Assembly: GCA_017937025.1 (NCBI GenBank)
Contig: JAGBEJ010000004.1
Coordinates: 124,001 to 188,000, forward strand
Length of the DNA: 64,000 nt
Direction: 5' to 3'
Source of the DNA: Paludibacteraceae bacterium
GTDB lineage: Bacteria; Bacteroidota; Bacteroidia; Bacteroidales; Paludibacteraceae
Below, one piece after another: positions 49,368 to 54,346 of this stretch. A program made the position numbers and the translations under genes. The notes under the pieces were generated by a model that was not told the origin of the DNA, did not search any database, and worked only from the letters and a program-made list of their open reading frames with translations. Within the stretch, counting starts at the first letter, position 1. Each line of letters begins with the position of its first letter.

Positions 49368-49754
49368 GTACAGACGCGATTAATCGCGTCTCTACAACCC
49401 ACGCGCAAATCGTAGAGACGGTGCATGCACCGTCTAATCACACACATATGAATCATACAGACGCGATTAATCGCGTCTCTACAACCCCACCCACAAATCG
49501 TAGAGACGGTGCGTGCACCGTCTAATTGCCCACAAATTCCGTACAGACGTCACAATGTGGCGTCTCTACCGCATAACCAATGATTTCCGCATATTTTGTA
49601 GGGGCGAATAATTATTCGCCCCTACGACACCCCCAATCAATAATTTCCAATATTCCTCACAAACATCCGTTGCGTTGATTCCGCCACAGACGGAGCACGC
49701 TCCGTCTCTACACCCACCCACAAATTGTACAGACGCGATTAATCGCGTCTCTAC
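49368..49754. repeat. palindrome array A (eight elements)
   Basis: Eight near-perfect palindromes of 25-29 bases lie at 49368-49395, 49412-49436, 49455-49482, 49500-49524, 49541-49569, 49598-49625, 49687-49711 and 49727-49754. Most start GTACAGACG or GTAGAGACG and end CGTCTCTAC, but the cores differ: GCGATTAATCGC (three), GTGCATGCAC or GTGCGTGCAC (two), TCACAATGTGG, GGAGCACGCTCC, and one variant bordered by GTAGGGGCG with core AATAATT. Spacers are AC-rich (ACCCACCCACAAAT). The 570-base gap between genes otherwise holds only a terminator. No ORF here is credible; the frames are by-products of the palindromes. Confidence 0.92.
49541..49754. repeat. copy 1 of a duplicated palindrome block
   Basis: The order TCACAATGTGG element, CATAACCAATGA spacer, AATAATT element, CACCCCCAATCAATAATTTC spacer, GGAGCACGCTCC element, then GATTAATC element is repeated in 54044-54303 with only scattered differences and one additional element inserted. 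Confidence 0.85.
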
Positions 49755-52111: not shown

Positions 52112-53440
52112 TTAGATGAAGATTTTCCATCCTTTTGCCAGTTGCTCGACATTATAGCGAGTATTCAATCCGCTGGTCTCTGGCAGTCTGAAAACTTGTA
52201 TGTTTCTACTTTTGAGAACAGGGTCATCAGCTATAGCCTTTATTAAATTCTTCCCCCAAGAATTACACTTCCCGTAACCGTTGATTGCGATTTTCTTGAT
52301 TGTCGGATGTTTCTTAAGGAAATCAATGATGTCGTTAGGCTGTCCGCTGCAGATGCTCTTGTCGCTGCTGTCTTCCGCATCGCGTATTACCCATTCGTAA
52401 TAGTCCCACAACACGATACGATGTCTTGCCAGCAGCGCCATTTTGTCTTTATAAGTTGTTGGGACTGGGTAATCATTGTAGATTTCGCATAGAACTTCCC
52501 AAATGCGATTCGTGTTGTCATGGTAATATTCCCCTGACTCCAACGAGCTAATTCCAGGGAATGTGCCTATGATTAGAATCTCTGGGTCGTCACACATTAA
52601 AGGCGGCAAGCCTTGGGTTTTCCCCATTGGGATATTCCATCCTGCTTTTGTCAGTTTGTCAAGAACAAAGTCATAACTTTCCCATACAATAATGTTTGAA
52701 GTATGCTCATAACCGTATGCCATTGCTATCATACAGCCTTGGTGCTTGTCCGATTCATAGGATTTCATTTCGGCAGGATAAATATGTGTAATAGCATCTG
52801 CTTTGATAGTAATTGGGCAGCTCCAACGTTTATCGTTGGAATATGACGCTCTCGGGTTTAATGTCAATTCAAGCAAATTTCCATTGACTCGTTTCTTGTT
52901 TGGCAACGGAGCGCGAAAAATAAGACGCTCATCAGTCCATTTGTCAGAACCATTTACATTAACCTTTTCTATATAGTTGTTAATATAGAAATGCCCGAAA
53001 AAACGTTCGGGGATTATAATTGATGTTATCTCGTTGTTACAACGAACAATCGGCTTGTTTCTAAGAAAATAAGAATCACCCCATTTGCTGAAGTCTAATT
53101 CTTTTTCGTTTCCGGTGAAAACGATTTCTTCTATACTATTATTCATAGTAAGGAACAAATCTTCAAAGGAACTGACAAATTCTGCGTTTCTAATCCCGGT
53201 TCCTTTGAATAAGTTTTTACTTGAACTGAGAAATTTTGATGAAATTGTAACTTTACGAATAGAGTTGAGACCCTTTTGCGGTTTTATCAGGTTGACTGAA
53301 TCCGGAAATACAATCTCTTTAAAAGTTCCATGTAAGGCATTTTCCTCAATTGTAGTTACACCAGATGGAATCTTTGCTATTTCGTCAAAGCAATTGCATT
53401 CTGTAAGGATGCCATCCTTAATTGTGAATTTTTCGTCCAT
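52112..53440 (-). CDS. LRR-like region fused to a hypoxanthine-DNA-glycosylase-like domain
   Basis: A 442-residue protein without a signal peptide (start at 53440, MDEKFTIKDG; the longer frame from 53506 is charged and not signal-like). Residues 1-170 resemble degenerate BspA-type leucine-rich repeats (IPSGVTTIEENAL, KEIVFPDSVN, IRKVTISSKF). About 275-442 matches the UDG-superfamily hypoxanthine-DNA glycosylase pattern (TIGR04274 type): EILIIGTFPGISSLESGEYY, NRIWEVLCEI, RHRIVLWDYYEW, IAINGYGKC and RLPETSGLNTRY near the end, where the family has LPSTSPAN. The middle (170-275) is unassigned. The fusion is unusual; the domain may remove deoxyinosine or act on another target. Confidence 0.8.
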   Translation of the reverse strand: MDEKFTIKDGILTECNCFDEIAKIPSGVTTIEENALHGTFKEIVFPDSVNLIKPQKGLNSIRKVTISSKFLSSSKNLFKGTGIRNAEFVSSFEDLFLTMNNSIEEIVFTGNEKELDFSKWGDSYFLRNKPIVRCNNEITSIIIPERFFGHFYINNYIEKVNVNGSDKWTDERLIFRAPLPNKKRVNGNLLELTLNPRASYSNDKRWSCPITIKADAITHIYPAEMKSYESDKHQGCMIAMAYGYEHTSNIIVWESYDFVLDKLTKAGWNIPMGKTQGLPPLMCDDPEILIIGTFPGISSLESGEYYHDNTNRIWEVLCEIYNDYPVPTTYKDKMALLARHRIVLWDYYEWVIRDAEDSSDKSICSGQPNDIIDFLKKHPTIKKIAINGYGKCNSWGKNLIKAIADDPVLKSRNIQVFRLPETSGLNTRYNVEQLAKGWKIFI

Positions 53441-53588
53441 AGTGTTTGTTTTTCCGTTCTTGTTATTTTGTTTTACAATCGTAATGCTTTTCGGAGTGGT
53501 GTGCAAAGTCCTTGTTGGTCCTTGTTGTGTGAGTGTCGCGTATGTGTTGAAAAATTATAGTAATCTTGCGGCAGTCTCGACAAAGCAC

Positions 53589-53671
53589 AAAAAAAGCGGG
53601 CAACTGATTGACATCTGTTTGTAGAGGTTGTAGGAATACCTTAGTAGCCAGAAATCAATGCAGTTGCCCGC
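53589..53671 (-). terminator. terminator stem of the candidate RNA gene
   Basis: On the minus strand GCGGGCAACTG (53671-53661) pairs perfectly with CAGTTGCCCGC (53606-53596), followed immediately by seven T (53595-53589). The loop is long (54 bases), so the inner strand also takes part in the rod; the two folds are mutually exclusive. Confidence 0.6.
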
Positions 53672-53892
53672 ATTGTATATGCTGATAGACGGCTGTCTAT
53701 ACTGGATCATATACACTACGGGCTTCCACTTCGACTTGCTTCTGGGCTACTGATTAGAAACTTCCTACATTTCTACAAACCAGCTAACAAGCGTCGGTAA
53801 AACGCGTTTGTTAAATATGTCGCCGCTTTTTTCCGCTGTCGGTGCCAGCGTCGTTTTTCGCTCATTGGGCGCAGTTGCTTCCCAATAGAGCG
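53589..53892 (-). ncRNA. candidate structured non-coding RNA gene
   Basis: No credible ORF occupies this about 300-base interval, but it has all parts of an independent RNA gene on the minus strand: a promoter (53897-53927), three 5' hairpins (53859-53892 with an 11-bp stem; 53834-53850; 53785-53813), a rod-like fold of about 165 bases (outer arms 53617-53635 with 53762-53780; middle arms 53643-53653 with 53740-53751; inner arms 53666-53690 with 53694-53722) and an intrinsic terminator. The GCAACTGC in the first hairpin loop can also pair with CAGTTGC in the terminator stem. The rod with internal bulges recalls 6S RNA, but I do not recognise a known family. Confidence 0.65.
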
Positions 53893-53896
53893 GTTA

Positions 53897-53927
53897 TAAA
53901 GGTATGCTCATTTTGTGAAAATGCAAA
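53897..53927 (-). promoter_or_regulatory. promoter of the candidate RNA gene
   Basis: On the minus strand TTTG (53927-53924) is followed by 19 bases and TACCTTTA (53904-53897), one mismatch to the TAnnTTTG consensus. Predicted start is about 53892, exactly at the first hairpin. Confidence 0.6.
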
Positions 53928-54001
53928 TAGAAAAGATATGTTTTTTAACACCACGCCGTGGTGGTGATAACCTACGATTTTCGCCACAGACGCGATTAAT
54001 T

Positions 54002-54346
54002 GTACAGACGCGATTAATCGCGTCTCTACCACGCACGCAATTCGTACAGACGTCACATTGTGGCGTCTCTACCGCATAACCAATGAATTCCGTATATTTT
54101 GTAGAGGCGAATAATTATTCGCCCCTACGGCACCCCCAATCAATAATTTCCAATATTCTTCACCAACATACGTTGCGTTGATTCCGCCACAGACGGAGCA
54201 CGCTCCGTCTCTACAACCCCACCCACAAATCGTAGAGACGGTGCGTGCACCGTCTAATCCACGCACAAATGAATCGTACAGACGCGATTAATCGCGTCTC
54301 TACAGCGCACGCAATCCGTACAGACGTCACATTGTGGCGTCTCTAC
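54002..54346. repeat. palindrome array B (seven elements)
   Basis: Palindromes lie at 54002-54029, 54044-54072, 54101-54128, 54190-54214, 54232-54256, 54276-54303 and 54318-54346, plus a half-element at about 53986-54000. Cores are the same set as in array A (GATTAATC, TCACATTGTGG, AATAATT, GGAGCACGCTCC, GTGCGTGCAC). Together with array A these elements bracket the RNA gene, the LRR/glycosylase gene and the BspA gene. The region contains no credible ORF. Confidence 0.9.
54044..54303. repeat. copy 2 of the duplicated palindrome block
   Basis: Colinear with 49541-49754, including the long non-palindromic spacer (CACCCCCAATCAATAATTTC, then GTTGCGTTGATTCCGCCACA). It has an extra GTGCGTGCAC element at 54232-54256 that is absent from copy 1. 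Confidence 0.85.

Follow-up and report, generated by a model that had tools for sequence, protein, structure and literature searches.

A family of large folded RNAs with a conserved alternative strand pairing in Paludibacteraceae

Introduction

Does a 340-base interval that lacks a credible ORF encode a structured RNA and, if so, what kind of RNA is it? The question is raised by the minus strand at 53927-53589 of the window, the 64,000-nt stretch of a Paludibacteraceae (Bacteroidales) genome analysed here. The original prediction, made from the letters alone, was of an independent RNA gene of a new family with a promoter, three hairpins, a rod and a terminator. We find that the interval belongs to a hitherto undescribed family of large, folded RNAs, many of which lie directly ahead of protein-coding genes.

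Results

The interval holds a strongly folded RNA without an open reading frame

Inspection of the ORFs across 53589-53927 revealed no credible one inside the interval, as had been predicted. All of the named parts are present on the minus strand in the order given, and the hairpins, the rod, strand B and strand C with its seven T are exact (Table 1). The minus strand from 53895 to 53589 folds with a minimum free energy (MFE) of -122.7 kcal/mol, compared with a mean of -76.6 (sd 5.1) for shuffled sequences (z = -9.0), and 0 of 100 shuffles folded as well. The promoter candidate follows the Bacteroidetes consensus of TTTG and TAnnTTTG (PMC7366714); with one mismatch allowed the window holds eight such sites against 5.1 expected, so that a single match is not above chance, and we believe this one mainly because its position is kept in a congener (G001). 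The loop of the 5' hairpin contains GCAACTG, which is complementary to strand C; the hairpin is no general feature of the family. The three predicted hairpins are all there, but the second (53850-53834) turns out to be stem 1 of an H-type pseudoknot.

Table 1. Features of the locus, all on the minus strand (coordinates within the window).
Feature	Position	Strand	Basis
Bacteroidetes-type promoter candidate, TTTG-19-TACCTTTA	53897..53927	-	1 mismatch to TTTG/TAnnTTTG; 93% identity in congener G001
5' hairpin, CCGCTC..GAGCG	53859..53893	-	sequence and MFE; kept in G001
Core H-type pseudoknot, S1 CGCTG/CAGCG, S2 CACCG/CGGCG, A-rich linker, then ACATA	53816..53850	-	pair counts in alignments A1 and A6
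Hairpin H2, AACAAACGCG-loop-CGACGCTTGTT	53786..53812	-	helix 1 of the covariation count; GCGTTTGC..GCTT kept in relatives
Rod of nested helices	53608..53784	-	helices 2-6, 39 of 45 counted pairs, covarying
Strand A, AGCCCGTAGTGTATATG, 5' strand of the upper rod, partner B	53708..53724	-	helices 5 and 6
Strand B, GCGGGCAACTG, common partner of A and C	53661..53671	-	B:C 11 pairs
Strand C, CAGTTGCCCGC, and U-run (seven T), predicted terminator arm	53589..53606	-	C:B duplex -26.3 kcal/mol, 0/100 C shuffles as good
Second promoter-like site, TTTG-20-TACGATTG, past the RNA and ahead of the next ORF	53476..53507	-	1 mismatch; position kept in window-type relatives
Next ORF, BspA-type LRR segment and uracil-DNA-glycosylase (UDG)-like domain	52112..53440	-	Pfam LRR_5 E 4e-4, UDG E 6e-5, both under the gathering cut-off

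The next ORF starts 148 nt past the U-run with the promoter-like site in between; in the best window-type relatives this second promoter reads TTTGC-19-TAATTTTG. Elsewhere in the window, 53990-54050, 54217-54290 and 49400-49590 hold a dispersed palindromic repeat, GTAGAGACGCGATTAATCGCGTCTGTAC, with its surroundings, at which the similarity to G001 breaks. The sequence GGACCAACAAGGACT in the 3' flank of the RNA was considered as the end of a mobile element and rejected, as it occurs in just three places in its own genome with no clear link.

The RNA matches no described family

Rfam 15 finds one tRNA in the whole window and nothing else. At the gathering threshold or with E values up to 5 across 53200-54300, the interval matches no family; weak miRNA-like matches fall outside it, on the palindromic repeat. 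Among 31 loci of relatives, tRNA and DUF805b RNA (RF02914) were the sole Rfam matches. The source of DUF805b RNA is reportedly a 2017 paper. The original prediction had also set this RNA apart from 6S RNA, and the 6S covariance model (RF00013) indeed has no match in 53200-54300 or in the genome of the window, in contrast to 5 of 14 control genomes, in which it scores. No tmRNA was found as a candidate. The paper that gives the promoter consensus also covers the 6S RNA of Bacteroides thetaiotaomicron (PMC7366714). Literature searches found no published description of the present family.

Covariation supports the rod, and a G-U bias points to the minus strand as the RNA

Thirteen window-type copies were aligned (A2) over the rod and H2, with 45 counted pairs, and 94.8% of the cells are paired. 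Pairs in the rod covary in these homologues: 14 pairs are changed on both sides, a result seen in 0 of 500 shuffles and against at most seven in slid controls, with the proviso that the shuffle control ignores relatedness and that the structure was partly derived from the same 13 sequences. GTAGGA/TCCTAC within the rod is invariant. Cells with G-U outnumber those with A-C by 64 to 7, a bias to be expected of a strand under selection as RNA and not as a DNA palindrome, so that the minus strand is taken to be the RNA. Together with the lack of an Rfam match and the conserved competing folds described below, these comparative counts, drawn from metagenome-assembled genomes, make it almost certain that the interval represents a new family with the fold of a structured RNA, as first proposed.

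The 5' core is a pseudoknot with a variable second stem

The core of the window copy, CGCTGGCACCGACAGCG-GAAAAAAG-CGGCG-ACATA, is an H-type pseudoknot in which stem 2 (S2) joins CACCG to CGGCG across AAAAAAG, one of the S2 pairs being A-C in this copy. Relatives show coordinated changes in the loop and its downstream partner (CACCG/CGGTG, TACCG/CGGTA, TATCG/CGATA, CTCCG/CGGAG, CCTTG/CAAGG and CCTCA/TGAGG). All five S2 pairs are changed on both sides in alignment A6 (0 of 500 shuffles); the unselected alignment A1 is the fairer test, because the rows of A6 were picked for diversity, and here 94.4% of cells are paired and seven cells carry changes on both sides (0 of 500 shuffles). When 92 sites were searched systematically, 45 held the pseudoknot, with several distinct S2 pairings, compared with 0 of 92 shuffled sites. 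The GACGTTAAAY motif of other copies belongs to a variant pseudoknot, of which it spans the second S1 half and the linker (as in L003, CGTCG-CTTAC-CGACG-TTAAACA-GTAAG); this variant sometimes stands immediately ahead of a core, so that some copies have two tandem pseudoknots. Some pseudoknots stand immediately ahead of an ORF and have no rod (L085, L122).

Strand B has two conserved partners

Strand B has A as its partner in the rod and C, just ahead of the U-run, as its other partner, such that A and C are alternatives on B. The prediction that rod and terminator share a strand is thereby confirmed: the 5' arm of the predicted terminator is the rod strand itself, and the competing folds are conserved in the family. 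Over the 13 window-type copies 97.9% of B:C cells are paired (2 of 500 shuffles) and two pairs are changed on both sides. The arrangement recurs where there is no visible sequence similarity, as in L168 (B AGTGTGAACTTTC, C GAAAGTTCGCACT, then TTTTT) and L164 (B ATGGGCGTGACTTATCG, C GATAAGAAACGTCCA). Across subfamilies of unrelated sequence, the C strands of 64 copies were each compared with 100 shuffles: in 43 copies five or fewer shuffles pair as well, and in 36 none do; several of the failures among these 64 tests are wrongly picked T-runs. A scan for consensus terminators misses the hairpin because its 5' arm is a rod strand, with about 54 nt separating the arms.

Computed energies place the two states about 2-20 kcal/mol apart, in an order that varies between copies. 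From H2 onwards the window copy gives -81.5 for the rod and -73.4 for the forced B:C pairing, the corresponding values for L168 are -59.5 and -57.1, and the MFE fold of L012 is the B:C hairpin. The two states should be mutually exclusive on geometric grounds, because C sits at the base of the rod and B some 35-45 bp up. The two conserved pairings that mark a terminator/antiterminator leader, A:B and B:C, are both present, with geometry arguing for their exclusivity.

Relatives are confined to one family of bacteria

Relatives of the RNA are confined to Paludibacteraceae. BLAST finds them in 65 of 300 genomes of the family, and a covariance model of the pseudoknot core matches 125 of 358, nearly all of one genus (g21); a genome can carry as many as 12 copies, and that of the window has one. 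Two of the six genomes in the window's genus carry the core. Public contigs that carry the core motif are labelled Paludibacteraceae or Bacteroidales and come mostly from ruminants. A few core matches in Paludibacteraceae outside these genera are at noise level. An occurrence in other families was rejected, since the three matches among 247 genomes of the order (E 4e-4 to 9e-4) are also at the level of noise, and one further match (G012/L005) looks like chance, the agreement being limited to 24 bases. A phage or plasmid origin was likewise rejected, with no matches in 50,697 phage and 72,556 plasmid records. One short IMG/VR contig (L206) has a core; next to it lie a rod, a further ORF and a stretch resembling DUF805b. 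A rod pattern has nine matches in viral contigs. The congener copy (L126:4092-4332 in G001) is 93% identical, lies beside different genes and has no rod; this loss may be an assembly artefact, because the contig stops 22 nt beyond the stretch aligned to the 5' half.

Many subfamilies lie in leader position

The core is preceded either by a TAnnTTTG promoter or by a gene, whose stop codon is often 7-12 nt away. These upstream genes include toxin-like families (ParE, YafQ, YoeB, HepT-like and PIN), KilA-N and DUF2442. Downstream, 57 ORFs annotated with Pfam and PADLOC encode BspA-type LRR proteins, KilA-N, ORF6N, BRO, RhuM, an EcoRI-type methylase, Cas9, an ATPase and others. In many subfamilies the RNA lies 26-111 nt ahead of the start codon and, because no promoter separates the two, these copies are 5' leaders. 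Homologous genes for secreted proteins retain a rod, of varying subfamily, upstream at that same distance, 26-111 nt before the ATG, again with a promoterless gap. Window-type copies are laid out as promoter or gene end, RNA, U-run, usually a second promoter, and then the next ORF at 125-574 nt. The description as an independent RNA gene may suit the window-type copies, which look self-contained, but would not suit the many subfamilies that are leaders.

Several further arrangements were observed at these loci. In L011, L012, L014, L015 and L026 an opposite-strand TTTG-20-TAnnTTTG promoter lies 18-41 nt past the U-run and points back into the RNA; a degenerate form of it is found near 53560 in the window. 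Four leaders (L185, L194, L196 and L054) hold a DUF805b RNA between rod and start codon, and in others short conserved stretches (e.g. GGCGATGGGATATAACCGCC) occupy its place. Single accessory genes are flanked by co-oriented cores in a cassette-like manner at L122:8768-9787, L226:3138-4673, L228:3009-3936 and L229:2846-3963; the genes so flanked are KilA-N, ORF6N with DUF4160/DUF2442, RhuM-like and BRO, and the last core of L122 lies ahead of a Cas9 gene. In one genome (G210), a 100-150-nt core-bearing unit is present at three loci (L220, L221 and L222) with 92-97% identity and different neighbours.

Discussion

The best explanation for these features is a family of transcription attenuator-type leader RNAs acting on accessory and surface genes, to which we assign a probability of roughly one half. 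What the sequences show is the family with its rod and pseudoknot, the conservation of the B:C alternative and, in relatives, the leader position. The family consists of RNAs of about 200-310 nt comprising, from 5' to 3', the pseudoknot, a small hairpin, a long imperfect rod, strand C and a run of U. The complete rod with A:B paired would act as antiterminator, and the B:C hairpin ending in the U-run as terminator. The conserved pseudoknot and an internal loop might then be where a putative effector (a protein, a metabolite, a ribosome or another RNA) tips the balance. From this arrangement we infer exclusivity, termination, the existence of an effector and any effect on the gene. In the window, transcription from the promoter at 53927-53897 would yield either a short RNA ending at 53589 or read-through into the LRR/UDG-like gene.

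Several observations sit less well with attenuation. The downstream genes share no function, unlike the regulon of a metabolite riboswitch, and a metabolite riboswitch with one regulon was rejected because these functions are too diverse. The B:C loop of about 54 nt is long for an intrinsic terminator, a local hairpin in window-type relatives, CGGATGACAACCAGTTGTCCG, could terminate instead, and the copies in L085 and L122 are pseudoknots right before an ORF with no rod. Attenuation of the next gene is perhaps not the role of the window-type copies, because a second promoter mostly follows them; the copy in the window may be either a leader or a self-contained RNA.

A second and less likely explanation is a stand-alone small RNA, trans-acting or protein-binding, that is ended by B:C and found near genes through insertion into intergenic space. 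Window-type copies would suit such a role, having a promoter candidate of their own and a U-run followed by the second promoter, and the neighbourhood differs in G001; the convergent promoter 18-41 nt past the U-run in several of them suggests sense/antisense control. Against this, subfamilies with the same fold stand right before start codons across promoterless gaps, and copies 7-12 nt past stop codons are likely to be co-transcribed with the gene before them.

We consider it unlikely that the pseudoknot marks sites of recombination or insertion in a cassette-like mobile system, with the rod RNA as one kind of cargo or an end structure. Covariation of the pseudoknot and the G-U bias indicate selection on RNA, rods hold their position ahead of homologous genes, and no target duplications, ends or recombinase were identified, even though single accessory genes (KilA-N, ORF6N, BRO, RhuM and DUF4160/DUF2442) do lie between co-oriented cores, a core unit of 100-150 nt occurs at three places in one genome, the distribution in the window's genus is patchy (two of six) and one copy precedes Cas9. 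Least convincing, and in our opinion improbable, is an mRNA-stability or translation element in which pseudoknots would shield the ends of mRNAs, either 5' ends or intercistronic ends left by processing, with the rod as a further stabiliser and the complementarity at the U-run of secondary importance: it would fit cores right past stop codons or promoters and those right before ORFs with no rod, but leaves the conserved third strand C ahead of the U-run unexplained.

The family is absent from Rfam release 15, has strong structural support and occurs in rumen bacteria that have been little studied and are known chiefly through metagenome assemblies. Returning to the attenuator reading, A:B against B:C is a testable switch design and offers a lead to the control, and perhaps the spread, of accessory genes such as KilA-N, BRO, Cas9, methylases and BspA-like surface proteins. 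A bolder and speculative extension is a new class of effector-sensing RNA switch, built on a three-strand rod/terminator platform, whose many diverging copies serve accessory, defence and surface genes of Paludibacteraceae and perhaps spread with single-gene cassettes. If this were so, pseudoknot stems that vary yet are always self-complementary would prevent mispairing among copies.

Among known systems, 6S RNA (RF00013) and 6S-Flavo (RF01685) also form a long imperfect rod, but the present RNA matches neither, has a pseudoknot, H2 and a competing C strand, is multi-copy in relatives and precedes genes. DUF805b RNA is a cis-regulatory RNA that occurs in the same leaders; it is, however, a separate 35-nt element with no match in the window. 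Type III toxin-antitoxin RNAs (ToxI, CptI, TenpI) share the layout of promoter, H-type pseudoknot(s), predicted terminator and downstream ORF (PMC5086642), whereas here there are one or two pseudoknots, no repeat array (none in the window) and a long rod; the window ORF is not ToxN-like, and no ToxN-type family is among the 25 of 40 Pfam families listed for relatives. Terminator/antiterminator leaders (attenuators and transcriptional riboswitches) differ from this family, which has no Rfam riboswitch or leader match and no coherent regulon, in that the antiterminator here would be a rod of more than 100 nt, preceded at the 5' end by H-type pseudoknots whose stem 2 is highly variable. What the family has in common with them is the leader position of many copies, the two pairings of one strand and the U-run that follows one of those pairings.
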